DNA from: Bacteroidaceae bacterium | GTDB lineage: Bacteria; Bacteroidota; Bacteroidia; Bacteroidales; Bacteroidaceae | NCBI GenBank assembly: GCA_017555875.1 | Contig: JAFZFN010000020.1 | Span: 1-33,340 of the forward strand | DNA: 33,340 bases | Direction: 5' to 3' | Shown here: positions 2,281 to 27,217 of the stretch, piece by piece | Layout: the number at the start of each line of letters is the position of its first letter | How positions within the stretch are numbered: the first letter of the stretch is position 1 | Program-made: the position numbers and the translations under genes | Notes under the pieces: generated by a model | What the model saw: the letters and a program-made list of their open reading frames with translations, nothing else | The model's database searches: none | Told to the model about the DNA's origin: nothing

Positions 2281-2442
2281 CATCAATCATCAGTAATCAG
2301 ATGTTTTCTTGATGATATAGTGAGGCGCAAAACAATGTAAAGAAAATTTTATATATATAATTATTTAAATAATTATATATATAACTTCTTTTTTCAAGTA
2401 TTTGCATCATCATATATATTTACTGATTACTGATGATTGATG
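2281..2442. repeat. MITE-like inverted-repeat element with central 36-bp palindrome
   Basis: Perfect 20-bp inverted repeats (CATCAATCATCAGTAATCAG at 2281-2300 and its reverse complement at 2423-2442) bound a 162-bp segment. Its core, 2349-2384, is a perfect 36-bp A/T palindrome. There is no ORF inside. Additional partial copies of the arm lie to the right at 2511-2532, 2657-2671 and 2708-2720. Confidence 0.75.
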
Positions 2443-2861
2443 ATTTCCGCGATGAGTGCATCCCAGCATAAGTTGCTGATATCGTTGTGTCAATGATGGT
2501 AAAGGTAAAGTCATCACTCATCAGTAATCAGTTTATTTTCTTTATTATTGTACTGAAAAGGTTGACTCTGATGACCGAAAGTGTAGACTCTTTTCCTGAG
2601 ATAGTTGACACAAATACGATTTTTGTTGACTCCCATCTTGTTTGCCTCCGAGATAGTCATCAGTAATCAGTAGTTCGTTTTTTAAATACTCTTTTGTCCC
2701 CTCCGTAAGCAGTAATCAGTTTGTCGCACCTGCGAAATGCACTCACCGCACCTGCGAAAAAATCACGCCACACCTATGAAAAACTGCGCTTGCAAGCGAA
2801 CAAATAGCAAGAAAATCCCCGCAAGTGTCTTTTTTTACAAAAACATGAAAAAACCTCAACC

Positions 2862-2880
2862 TGTCCCACGATATGGGACA
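2862..2880. promoter_or_regulatory. Short palindrome, possible operator
   Basis: TGTCCCA and TGGGACA form a perfect 7-bp stem around CGATA, 62 bp upstream of the HIRAN fragment start. This could be a regulator site or a small hairpin. The function is unknown. Confidence 0.3.
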
Positions 2881-2942
2881 ACACCTCCATAACTTCGTGC
2901 CAGAAAACAAAAGAACTTATAAACTCATAAACTTAAATCAGT

Positions 2943-3050
2943 ATGGAAACAAAGAAGAAGTATTTCATGGATTGCCACCTTGCAGGACGTATGTATCACG
3001 ACGCTGATGAAGTATGGAACCAGCTCACGAGTTATTATAGGTTATCCTAG
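2943..3050 (+). pseudogene. Truncated HIRAN-domain protein (N-terminal fragment)
   Basis: The ATG at 2943 opens a 35-codon frame. Its YFMDCHLAGRMYHDADEVWN segment (residues 7-26) resembles the first half of small HIRAN-domain proteins of Bacteroidetes, which normally go on to a G-x-x-L-x-L-x-x-E-x-x-N-x-x-D-P-x-A-V half. Here the similarity stops after NQL, and the last codons (YYRLS-stop) are already part of the 10-bp CCTAGG array; the TAG stop itself lies within a CCTAGG. HIRAN domains bind DNA 3' ends in proteins such as HLTF. Either the gene was cut by the array or this is a short ORF kept as array leader. The identification rests on about 20 residues. Confidence 0.5.
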
Positions 3051-3160
3051 GAGATATTAGGTTATCCTAGGAAGTTCTATGAAATCCTAGGAAATTCTGG
3101 GGCGTGTTAGGAGATTCTAGGAGGATCTAAGAAGGCTAGGAAATCATAGGCTTTATAGGA
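3031..3160. repeat. CCTAGG-type 10-bp tandem array, block A (13 units)
   Basis: A TAG or close variant recurs every 10 bp at 3038, 3048, 3058, 3068, (3078), 3088, (3098), 3108, 3118, (3128), then 3137, 3147 and 3156 after a 1-bp phase shift. Typical units are GTTATCCTAG, GAAATCCTAG and GAGATTCTAG. There are no spacers. The centre of the best units is the palindrome CCTAGG. The array ends about 30 bp before the putative promoter of the four-helix gene. Confidence 0.85.
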
Positions 3161-3192
3161 AATGGTGATTTTTAAGATTTCTTGAAAACATC

Positions 3193-3222
3193 ATTGATTT
3201 TGCGTATCTTTTTATAAATTTG
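3193..3222 (+). promoter_or_regulatory. Putative promoter between the two repeat blocks
   Basis: TAAATTTG at 3215-3222 fits TAnnTTTG, with ATTG at 3193-3196 (18-bp spacer) as a weak upstream element. A start near 3229 would place the whole of repeat block B in the 5' untranslated region of the four-helix gene. Confidence 0.45.
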
Positions 3223-3230
3223 CAGAGGAG

Positions 3231-3350
3231 TTTATAGGATTTTCTAGGAGATTCTAGGGATTTCTAGGAAAGCCTAGGTGATCCTAGGAAGTCCTAGGTG
3301 ATTCTAGGAGGTCCCAGGGAATTCCTAGGTAATTCTAGGGAAGACTAAGA
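3231..3350. repeat. CCTAGG-type 10-bp tandem array, block B (12 units)
   Basis: Ten-base units such as TTTCTAGGAG, AGCCTAGGTG, ATCCTAGGAA and GTCCTAGGTG follow without spacers, with one 1-bp slip near 3321. Five units hold the full CCTAGG palindrome or a one-base variant. The block starts at the predicted transcription start and ends 80 bp before the four-helix ORF, so it would be transcribed. Confidence 0.85.
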
Positions 3351-3431
3351 GGCTACAAAAAGCCACAAAGAAACCCAAAAAATCTAAAAACTATAAAAAC
3401 TATAAATAATTAAACAAAAACCATAAATACT

Positions 3432-4118
3432 ATGAACTACGCCTCTAAAGATAAGGTGCTGAAGAAGGGGACTGTATGGAAGGACCTCTACTTCTATCGC
3501 AAGAGCGATGCCATATATCAGCTTACGGTGGAGTTTTGCAAGCGCTTCCTTCCTGCCCATGGTGACCGTACGGTGGATCAGATGGTGCAGGCGGCACGCT
3601 CGGGCAAGCAGAACATCATCGAGGGGAGCGAGGATGGGCAGACGAGCTCGGAGATGGAGATACGCCTTATCAACGTCGCGCGGGGGAGTCTGCAGGAGTT
3701 GCGTGCCGACTATCTTGACTACCTCAACACGCATCACTTGCCGGTGTGGCCCAAGGATAGCGAGCGTCAGAGGAGGATGCGCGACTTCTGCCGTGAGCAG
3801 AATGACTATGAGGCTTATGCTCCGTTGGTGATGAAGATGACCGACGAGGAGTATGCCAACCTGCTGCTCACGCTATGTCACCAGACGGACAAGATGATGT
3901 GTGCTTACCTGCAGGCATTGGAGGAGCGCTTTGTCACTGAGGGTGGCATCAAGGAGCGCATGTATGCAGCCCGCACGGGCTACCGCCAGGCACAAGATGA
4001 GCATATGAGTCAGCTGGAGGCTGAGAATGCGGTCCTGCGAACGGAAAATGCGGTGCTGAAAGCGCGCATAGCGGAGCTGGAGTGGCGCTTGAGAGAAGAA
4101 CCTGGAGGTGCCAGGTAA
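3432..4118 (+). CDS. Four-helix-bundle (S23/IVS-like) protein with C-terminal coiled coil
   Basis: A 228-aa soluble protein without signal peptide. Residues about 17-165 are helical and carry the S23/four-helix signature: AARSGKQNIIEGSEDG (54-69), then RLINVARGSLQELRADYLDYL (78-98). The segment LPVWPKDSERQRRMRDFC (103-120) and the following helices look like the extended 'four helix bundle suffix' variety seen in Bacteroidetes. Residues about 186-222 form a heptad-like coiled coil (QLEAENAVLRTENAVLKARI). Related proteins include those encoded in 23S rRNA intervening sequences and the diversity-element protein Avd, which is basic and nucleic-acid associated; the role of this subfamily is unknown to me. 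The gene lies between 10-bp CCTAGG arrays, and its last codons (PGGAR-stop) overlap a degenerate CCAGG repeat of the same period. Binding of the protein to the repeats is inference. Confidence 0.8.
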   Translation: MNYASKDKVLKKGTVWKDLYFYRKSDAIYQLTVEFCKRFLPAHGDRTVDQMVQAARSGKQNIIEGSEDGQTSSEMEIRLINVARGSLQELRADYLDYLNTHHLPVWPKDSERQRRMRDFCREQNDYEAYAPLVMKMTDEEYANLLLTLCHQTDKMMCAYLQALEERFVTEGGIKERMYAARTGYRQAQDEHMSQLEAENAVLRTENAVLKARIAELEWRLREEPGGAR

Positions 4119-4130
4119 CTCCAGGAGTAT
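4101..4130. repeat. Degenerate 10-bp repeat over the stop codon of the four-helix gene
   Basis: CCTGGAGGTG, CCAGGTAACT and CCAGGAGTAT are three consecutive 10-mers sharing CC-(T)-GG/CCAGG phasing. They resemble the CCTAGG arrays upstream and contain the TAA stop. With three units, chance cannot be excluded. Confidence 0.35.
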
Positions 4131-4221
4131 TATGACAAGGAGAAGAAAGAGTAAGGTCGGTGCCAAGCTGTATGAATGAGTGATTTGACAAGTCCCAATA
4201 AGGTATCGGGGCAAAACAAAT

Positions 4222-4252
4222 TTTGCACATCTGACGAAAAGCCTTACCTTTG
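4222..4252 (+). promoter_or_regulatory. Consensus promoter of the acyltransferase gene
   Basis: TTTG (4222-4225), exactly 19 nt, then TACCTTTG (4245-4252). This is a perfect match to the Bacteroidetes TTTG-N19-TAnnTTTG consensus, 26 bp before the ATG at 4278. Confidence 0.8.
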
Positions 4253-4277
4253 TGGACAATAACTCAAACCACACACG

Positions 4278-5369
4278 ATGACAACAAGCATACAGCAACC
4301 CACCAAGAGGATAGAGTACATCGATGCACTACGAGGACTGACCATGATTCTCGTAGTGTTTTCACACGTCGAACTTAGCTGCATGGGCATCACTACACCG
4401 ACCTACCTGAACGAGGTGCTGATGTCGTTTCGCATGCCGCTCTTCTTCTTCATCAGCGGATACATCGCCTACAAGGAGAGCCTGGCATGGGACTGGAGCA
4501 TGTGGAGGACGATGAGCAGGAAGAAGCTAGTCGTACAGCTGGTGCCAACGCTCATACTCGGGCTACTCTATACCTATGCCTATTATGGTACTGACTGGCA
4601 GACCTTCGTCACCGCAAACGGCAAACTAGGGTACTGGTTTACCATCGTGTTGCTAGAGATGTTCCTCATCCTATACACGGCAAATACCTGCCTCTACACC
4701 CCCGACCGAGAGCGCTACCGCAAGCGTATGACACTGACACTCTTATTGCTTGCAGGCATACTCTTCGTGGCCAAGATGGGTCTCAAGATGATCCCTACGC
4801 TCAACACGTGGGCCAACGTGGGGAGCTGGCACCACTTGTGTAGCTACTTCCAATACTTCGCCTTTGGCTACATCTGCTCCATGCACAAGGAGCGGTTTGC
4901 TCAGCTACTCGAAGCACGATATACGATGGCTATCGTAATAGGCCTCTACGCCTTGATCTTCGGAACGAAGAAATACCTCATCGCAACTCATCTGACAGGG
5001 AGCATAGACCTCTGGAAGGTGGCAGAGACCCTGAGCGAGGCGCTGATAGGATACCTGGGGCTCATCATCGTGTACAACACCTTCAAGACCTACCAAAACG
5101 GCTTCACTCGTGACAAACGAGTGGGAAAAGCGTTGCAGCTCATTGGCACAAGGACACTGGACATCTACCTCCTGCATAGTTTCTTCATGCCTCACCTACC
5201 CCAGCTGAGTGCGTTGTGTAGCGAAGGTAAGAATGCGGTAGTGGAGCTATTCCTTGGCGGTGGCATAGCGCTATCTATCATCGCTCTGTGTCTGTGCGTG
5301 AGCGCTGTCATACGCACAAGCCCTATGCTAGCGAAGCTCTTGTTCGGTGTGAGCAAGAAGAAGGGATAA
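4278..5369 (+). CDS. Membrane acyltransferase, family 3
   Basis: An integral inner-membrane O-acyltransferase (Acyltransferase 3 family), which typically acetylates sugars of polysaccharides or other envelope glycans. It has 363 aa and about ten hydrophobic segments. The N-terminal RIEYIDALRGLTMILVVFSH (residues 11-30) carries the family's diagnostic D-x-x-R-G-x-x and the helix-ending His. SFRMPLFFFISGYIAYK is the second hallmark, with the R-M-P-x-F-F-x-x-S-G-Y pattern. It has its own consensus promoter and converges with the exopolysaccharide operon. Its product may therefore decorate that polymer, but this is inferred from position only; the substrate cannot be told. Confidence 0.88.
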   Translation: MTTSIQQPTKRIEYIDALRGLTMILVVFSHVELSCMGITTPTYLNEVLMSFRMPLFFFISGYIAYKESLAWDWSMWRTMSRKKLVVQLVPTLILGLLYTYAYYGTDWQTFVTANGKLGYWFTIVLLEMFLILYTANTCLYTPDRERYRKRMTLTLLLLAGILFVAKMGLKMIPTLNTWANVGSWHHLCSYFQYFAFGYICSMHKERFAQLLEARYTMAIVIGLYALIFGTKKYLIATHLTGSIDLWKVAETLSEALIGYLGLIIVYNTFKTYQNGFTRDKRVGKALQLIGTRTLDIYLLHSFFMPHLPQLSALCSEGKNAVVELFLGGGIALSIIALCLCVSAVIRTSPMLAKLLFGVSKKKG

Positions 5370-18110: not shown

Positions 18111-18150
18111 TATCATCTAGGACAACCTATGATTCCCTAGAAATCCTAGG
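18111..18150. repeat. Four-unit CCTAGG-type 10-bp repeat between hisF and hisIE
   Basis: The units TATCATCTAG, GACAACCTAT, GATTCCCTAG and AAATCCTAGG have the same 10-bp phasing and TAG/CCTAGG core as the arrays at 3031-3350, and lie in the hisF-hisIE gap. A T-run (GTTTTTTTT on the plus strand) follows. Confidence 0.55.
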
Positions 18151-27087: not shown

Positions 27088-27217
27088 TTCTATTCGCGAA
27101 TAGAATACTTTCTGACCGCGAATAGAAAACATTCTGACCGCGAATAGAAAACATTCTGACCGCGAGCAGAAATAGTTCTGACCGCGAATAGAAAAACTCC
27201 TGAAACTATAGAAAAAC
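27088..27217. repeat. 22-bp tandem array (5 full units plus one degenerate)
   Basis: Units start at exactly 22-bp intervals at 27088, 27110, 27132, 27154 and 27176, with consensus beginning TTCTGACCGCGAATAG; a decayed unit follows at 27198-27217. The first unit holds the perfect 18-bp palindrome TTCTATTCGCGAATAGAA (27088-27105). The array has no spacers, so it is not a CRISPR. It ends just before a degenerate ORF at 27230. Confidence 0.88.

Follow-up and report, generated by a model that had tools for sequence, protein, structure and literature searches.

S23-type four-helix proteins are common, and most have no assigned function; two solved S23-type structures bear titles that give their function as unknown. 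In the excerpts of the literature drawn on here, a 23S rRNA IVP domain is one of the labels in a figure on CRISPR-linked genes (PMC10910872), and REP/RAYT systems are described by the flanking, co-evolution and co-abundance of RAYT genes and REPs (Nunvar 2010, PMC2817692), the REPs being palindromes of 20–40 bp (PMC3733652). Short tandem repeats of another type, arrays of the heptamer TAACTGA, are reported from Beggiatoaceae, Cyanobacteria and some Bacteroidetes (MacGregor 2015, PMC4679880). In the parts of that report drawn on here, the way in which these arrays spread is said not to be evident, and S1, cold-shock and Csr proteins are proposed as their binders; the terms four helix, S23 and 23S are absent from its main text.

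Here we analyze a 33,340-nucleotide stretch of DNA from a Bacteroidaceae bacterium (the window), in which a gene for an S23-type protein lies beside short-period tandem arrays. We found no account of such a pairing in the open-licence literature, and other papers may describe it.

Results

Two 10-bp-period arrays precede a four-helix gene in the window

We counted CTAGG-like units, allowing at most one mismatch, and obtained 13 in array A and 12 in array B (Table 1), as expected from a preliminary description of this DNA that had put about 25 units in two blocks. The same description had called the 10-bp period exact; the period stands, but the exactness does not, given the three slips in the two arrays. 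Self-match at an offset of 10 was 0.56 in block A and 0.65 in block B, whereas 2000 mononucleotide shuffles per block never exceeded 0.41 and 0.40, respectively, and the highest value outside the blocks was 0.45 (110-position stretches). The pattern CTAGN6CTAGN6CTAG, with up to one mismatch, had 11 matches in the window; 100 dinucleotide shuffles gave an expectation of 0.04, with 2 as the largest count.

Table 1. Features of the window discussed in the text
Feature	Position	Strand	Description
Array A	3037-3160	.	13 CTAGG-like units at a 10-bp period, apart from two 9-bp steps
Array B	3234-3349	.	12 CTAGG-like units at a 10-bp period, apart from one 11-bp step
TAAATTTG	3215-3222	+	Located between blocks A and B; read from the sequence
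228-aa four-helix bundle gene	3432-4118	+	Contains TIGR02436 and the TIGR04258 suffix domain; the C-terminal helix is long
About three degenerate CCWGG units, 10-bp spacing	4101-4125	.	Extend across the gene's 3' end and its stop codon; probable remnant of a 3' array
Gene-free short array, CTAGG type, 4 units	18117-18150	.	hisF-hisI gap
5' ORF fragment, about 28 codons	2943-3047	+	Ends prematurely where array A starts; from translation

We take TAAATTTG to resemble, as a motif, the Bacteroidetes -7 promoter box. The akin TATATTTG precedes the array in locus L176; the promoter-like TAnnTTTG was present at two loci only and is not counted as a constant part of the cassette. Two features had been overlooked initially, the degenerate CCWGG run and the hisF-hisI array, and relatives show clearer 3' arrays at the position that matches the former. 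The ORF fragment that ends at array A is presumably HIRAN-like and had no Pfam match at E≤1. A 28-residue stretch of it is 79% identical in L176 (genome G609), where the frame continues (L176:583-). In that genome, which belongs to another genus, a longer relative of the ORF stands upstream of a cassette of like type, and this hints that the ORF and the cassette moved jointly or share a common site. On the other side, an acyltransferase gene (PF01757) lies 159 bp downstream of the four-helix gene. Elsewhere, the window contains a tandem array of 22-bp units (27095-27195; 4.6 copies, 87% matches).

The gene encodes an S23/Avd-type protein

The 228-aa protein scored 34.5 bits against TIGR02436 (four helix bundle protein; NCBIfam cut-off 24) and 75.1 bits against TIGR04258 (4helix_suffix; cut-off 40). 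Its score against PF05635 (23S_rRNA_IVP), 32.3 bits, lies below the Pfam gathering cut-off of 33.8; despite this, its fold matched 2gsc in structure comparison, and its structure model was all-helical. The NCBIfam scores and the fold comparison uphold the S23-like four-helix assignment made at the outset and identify an S23/Avd-type protein. Pfam and NCBIfam searches and fold comparison found no transposase, nuclease or recombinase domain in it, nor any other recognized catalytic domain, and no Y1/HUH transposase domain matched in Pfam or NCBIfam at E≤0.1. PADLOC-DB returned 0 anti-phage defence families at E≤0.1 for the two proteins tested. The suffix-domain family was found in 50 of the 395 genomes sampled across the phylum, whereas none of the 14 control genomes yielded it.

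Arrays accompany the gene across the sampled family

We gathered 116 loci and retained 107 distinct four-helix genes after removing nine (five duplicates and four that were cut short or under 450 bp). Because the relatives sampled were the best 80 of 567, this set leans toward close relatives in the p10 clade. We called ORFs by their length and not with a gene finder, and other ORFs of at least 150 aa in the same loci served as controls. One hundred of the genes had 200 bp of sequence on either side, and 82 of them had an array of 9- or 10-bp period on at least one side, compared with 10 of 290 control ORFs; arrays on both sides accompanied 35 of the 100 and one of the 290. In the sampled family, the array is thus linked to the four-helix gene. 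According to the preliminary description, array-free homologues, or arrays just as common beside unrelated genes, would break this link. The outcome is mixed, as 18 of 100 homologues fall below the array threshold and unrelated genes have arrays beside them too, though at a far lower rate per gene. Distant homologues reached the threshold in only 6 of 28 cases, and several of those below it carry, by eye, three to five 9-bp units, for example GGGAC upstream and GTCCC downstream. Carriers of a downstream array include isolates of Prevotella jejuni, P. amnii, P. corporis and P. falsenii and of Hoylesella loescheii, H. timonensis and H. buccalis, so the pairing is no binning artefact.

Arrays frequently start at a stop codon. 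The four-helix gene ends in TAG in 66 of 107 cases, and 33 of the 55 TAG stops that adjoin CTAG arrays are in phase with the units. The proposal that arrays specifically bracket the promoter was not supported as worded, as they occur on both sides of the gene, some upstream arrays begin at the stop codon of the preceding gene, and some gaps between convergent genes contain gene-free arrays. For the orientation of the two flanks relative to each other, direct exceeded inverted at 73 of 104 loci, with the reverse at 23 and ties at 8. In the distant clade, inverted prevailed at 15 of 26 loci (L145 and L149, for example) and direct at 10, with one tie. Direct flanks in the main clade and an inverted tendency in the distant one mean that no single terminal-repeat rule applies.

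Unit type follows the protein tree

The p10 unit consists of CCTAGG and four near-free bases (436 units, 43 loci), and the p9 unit of CTAG and five free bases (247 units, 22 loci); unit chains were selected on CTAG with at most one mismatch, which leaves the outer C/G and the linkers as the only unbiased columns. Other clades have the cores CTATAG, CCGG, GGGAC and others. Recent duplication alone would preserve the linkers as well, so the array cores are probably under selection, to judge from these alignments of units. Upstream p9 arrays kept the base before CTAG better than the base after it in nine cases and the opposite in none, with four ties, and downstream p9 arrays divided 9 to 8 with four ties; p10 arrays had no side preference around the core (9/8/7 and 10/11/13).

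On a tree of 106 proteins, period changed 10 times, compared with at least 23 (mean 30.5) in 200 shuffles of 96 labelled rows, and core class changed 19 times against a shuffled minimum of 31. Period and core follow the protein tree, and gene and array type therefore travel together. The window's genome contains two further, paralogous cassettes: C34 (L002), with AGAGGAC-like units and an inverted run downstream, and C37 (L003), with weak CCGG-like units. As these differ in their units from the CCTAGG cassette of the window (C11), a single genome can host several gene-array types.

Two further observations concern period. At L046, L208 and L209 (about 2580-2870 in L208), a 10-bp CTAGG array gives way to 11-bp arrays whose units are at first related and later unrelated, as though through a drift in period. 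Other short-period arrays (7, 8 and 11 bp; for example L102:8156-8305 and L107:157-318) occur in the same genomes, with mostly near-identical units, and nearly all are distant from the four-helix gene.

Closely related cassettes occupy different genomic sites

We compared flanks at the 69 loci that had a clear period and 1400 bp of sequence on either side, which yielded 336 pairs of at least 75% protein identity. Flank homology was absent in 311 pairs, present on both sides in 16 and on one side in nine; by contrast, hisF adjoins hisI in all 18 genomes of the window's genus in which hisF was found. The preliminary description had offered an autoregulatory or a mobile unit, and the 311 pairs make the mobile unit the better-supported half of that proposal. 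Two loci of one genome, L004 and L023, align at 89.6% identity across 927-938 bp, corresponding to array, gene and array, with no alignment beyond; L023 stops 195 bp past the gene, so that this comparison bears little on the 3' side. Neighbouring ORFs, called by length, fell into 136 clusters for 198 ORFs, 119 of them singletons.

Among the loci compared, we found no empty site of the whole cassette. The acyltransferase gene of the window did not lead to one, since its relatives, 60-61% identical, have different upstream sequence and make the comparison uninformative. A phage origin was considered and rejected, with no phage match and 0 viral contigs confirmed among 81 pattern matches. A plasmid origin was likewise set aside: the one plasmid-collection record was a 568-kb replicon of Prevotella nigrescens, on which the gene has a downstream p9 array.

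Gene-free arrays are dispersed and co-occur with the gene

The window's genome holds 45 strict p10 matches (CTAGN6CTAGN6CTAG) in ten places, the window included, and 0 for the reversed control. The gene-free stretches that we inspected in it lie in intergenic gaps, one of them beside a contig end. In other genomes most of the 20 stretches inspected were also intergenic, as in the hisI-hisF gap of two genera; another gene-free array adjoins a PALP-domain gene that probably belongs to a trp operon. Only 6 of the 63 gene-free CTAG arrays of our loci fall inside ORFs of at least 150 aa. Those in gaps of up to 500 bp (n=38) lie between co-directional genes in 28 cases, convergent genes in eight and divergent genes in two; an avoidance of divergent gaps was considered and rejected (2/38 compared with 46/339 other gaps, p 0.2). 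Gene-free arrays between co-directional genes matched the direction of transcription 5 to 1 for p9 and 8 to 5 for p10. Genes ending at gene-free arrays have a TAG stop in 26 of 42 cases, compared with 231 of 742 overall, a background that includes the four-helix genes.

hisF was found in 18 of 19 genus members, and in these we scored the hisF-hisI array by visual inspection, G007 being ambiguous. A CTAGG array is present there in seven genomes, namely the window's own, G001, G002, G004, G009, G012 and G013, and absent from the close relatives G010 and G018 (HisF 95-96% identical) and from more distant ones. Separately, G006 (L218) carries two copies of another element of about 140 bp, with inverted GGCCTCCCC...GGGGAGGCC-like ends, in its hisA-hisF and hisF-hisI gaps, and the hisA-hisF gap of G007 (L222) holds an element resembling it. 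Two other genes are bracketed by arrays on both sides with no four-helix gene present, a PALP-domain gene, probably trpB, in G035 (L211:5878-7295) and, in the window's genome, a MORN-repeat gene (L166:1857-3410), as if other genes could be transported as well.

We then counted gene and array by hand in 301 genomes of the family, 109 of which have any family gene; genomes whose gene had an identity of 70% or more to the query, 18 in all, were scored as p10-type carriers. At least four p10 matches occurred in 16 of 18 carriers and 9 of 283 non-carriers, and at least one in 17 of 18 and 27 of 283. Within genera, the odds ratio for p10 gene and array was 69 (p 1.8e-9), and the reversed p10 control gave 0 in all 301 genomes. 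Genes of p9 type cannot be separated by identity, and p9 arrays were accordingly scored against any family gene with genera pooled: at least three matches were present in 56 of 109 genomes with a family gene and 18 of 192 without one, the reversed control giving one to three matches in 29 of 301. Exceptions run in both directions. Arrays of p10 type are found without a detectable matching gene in G001 (11 matches), G002 (10), G014 (11; its sole family gene is distant, at 45%) and G495 (20), and p9 arrays without a detectable gene in G712 (74 matches; 99% complete), G601 (68), G645 (56) and G495 (106); arrays in gene-free genomes would have to be explained by loss, by missing contigs or by another agent. 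Conversely, the carrier G609 has 0 strict p10 matches, with about three units upstream of its gene.

Discussion

We favor, with a probability of about 0.5, the reading that the window contains a mobile cassette with cognate dispersed arrays, a pattern like that of REP/RAYT in which an S23/Avd-type protein takes the place of the transposase. The window would then hold one copy of the cassette, made up of array, four-helix gene and (degenerate) array. The S23/Avd-type bundle, a probable oligomer, would probably recognize the core of its own array type, which in the window would present it with one CCTAGG core per helical turn, every 10 bp. It would cause or assist the copying of arrays into new intergenic places, so that a copy with the gene would be autonomous and the many arrays without it would be non-autonomous derivatives, much as in REP/RAYT. 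Both the binding of the protein to the core and its role in driving spread or movement are what we infer from the genomic pattern. A more specific version is tentative and, in our estimate, somewhat doubtful: these cassettes may represent a new class of bacterial selfish elements, a counterpart of REP/RAYT without a transposase, in which the S23/Avd-type protein, seemingly not an enzyme, polymerizes on the array, one core per turn, and drives its amplification and its transfer into intergenic gaps through host replication or repair. If so, it could explain the presence of S23-type proteins in rRNA intervening sequences, retroelements and arrays alike.

Part of the same evidence could be read as a regulon: by binding to arrays, either as DNA or within mRNA, the four-helix protein would control both its own gene and those that dispersed arrays adjoin. 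Core conservation despite linker drift suggests binding, the array period is close to one helical turn, array B would lie within the 5' UTR, and gene-free arrays mostly separate co-directional genes. However, some separate convergent genes, and the mix of gap orientations is not significantly different from that of other gaps at these loci; the genes that adjoin arrays are highly diverse, arrays remain in genomes without a detectable four-helix gene, and the TAG enrichment looks as if arrays start at the stop codon and not at a fixed distance from a start codon. We consider a regulon unlikely, and we hold a similarly low opinion of the proposal that the arrays are ordinary host repeats, arising by slippage, conversion or another agent, which the cassette uses as landing sites or recombination homology. 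This would suit the genomes that are rich in arrays without a detectable gene, the coexistence of 7-, 8- and 11-bp arrays away from the four-helix gene, and the likeness in direct orientation of the upstream and downstream arrays of a locus, expected if the gene had entered an array. Yet period and core track the protein clade and not merely the genome, C11, C34 and C37 carry different units in one genome, and the co-occurrence of gene and array persists within genera.

A narrower association is with restriction-modification. Sixteen of the 107 genes, spread over the tree, are placed between hsdS-like and hsdR-like ORFs, with Methylase_S (Pfam) in the upstream ORF at 7 of 7 loci tested and R-subunit domains downstream at 5 of 5. 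Mapped on the tree, a label for the 18 RM loci (hsdS is upstream in 17 and downstream in one) required 10 changes, and shuffled labels at least 13. We nevertheless regard it as improbable that the protein acts with type I RM enzymes and that the arrays are operon linkers, since this placement was seen for none of the other 91 genes (five of them have an R-like downstream neighbour only) and PADLOC-DB gave no match for two proteins; the R proteins differ in their domain sets, and the RM locus may thus be a preferred site, not a partner. Least credible to us is an RNA element like the 23S rRNA intervening sequences, with arrays that pair and a segment excised from the transcript. The protein superfamily is common to rRNA-IVS proteins, six arrays fold strongly relative to dinucleotide shuffles (z -1.4 to -8.9), and flanks in the distant clade can be inverted repeats (L145, L149). 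When linkers were permuted with the cores fixed, however, real arrays folded no better (116 arrays, mean z -0.12; 64 with z<0, five among the best 5 of 100, Wilcoxon p 0.24). The fold of the arrays therefore stems from their palindromic cores alone, and we reject a hairpin or paired-flank model for CTAG-type arrays; beyond the self-complementary CCUAGG noted in the preliminary description, we see no support for RNA structure. Flanks in the window's clade are, moreover, mainly direct repeats, and Rfam gave no match at window positions 2300-4300.

Returning to the mobile cassette, its pairing of gene and array with clade-specific cores means that every protein brings a predicted binding site, and natural pairs with differing cores and periods provide built-in controls. 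Both the function of S23-type proteins and the route by which short-period arrays disperse thereby become open to direct experiment. If the protein drives the arrays, it would represent a new route of DNA spread without a recognized transposase, and if it only binds them, a new family of sequence-specific DNA- or RNA-binding proteins. The arrays reach into core operons such as his.

Comparison with known systems

In its components, an S23-type protein with cognate short-period arrays, the cassette appears to fit none of the known kinds that we found. The comparison with Avd of diversity-generating retroelements (4dwl, 8ub7; PMC10053308, as far as the excerpts used here go) concerned the fold. 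Unlike S23/rRNA-IVS proteins (TIGR02436, PF05635; 2gsc, 2rld), the protein described here has a long C-terminal helix in addition to a TIGR04258 suffix domain, and its gene is flanked by cognate arrays; unlike a 23S intervening sequence, the gene lies outside a 23S rRNA gene (no Rfam match at E≤0.1 in 2300-4300). With the TAACTGA arrays, as portrayed in the excerpts of PMC4679880, our arrays share their form as short intergenic tandem arrays that are missing at the same site in some close relatives; the unit there is 7 bp, whereas here it is 9-10 bp, has free linkers and comes with a linked gene.

In pattern, the closest parallel is REP/RAYT, again as set out in the parts of the sources cited above. 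The four-helix protein differs from RAYT in that no Y1/HUH transposase domain was found in it, and the repeat is of another kind, with tandem 9-10-bp units of a 4-6-bp core and free linkers in place of a 20-40 bp palindrome; for these two reasons we do not count the cassette as a REP/RAYT member. Its flanks are also mostly direct (73/104), with an inverted tendency only in the distant clade (15/26). What the two systems have in common is a small ORF between repeats that are also dispersed intergenically, a repeat type that follows the protein phylogeny, and a gene whose presence tracks the number of cognate repeats.
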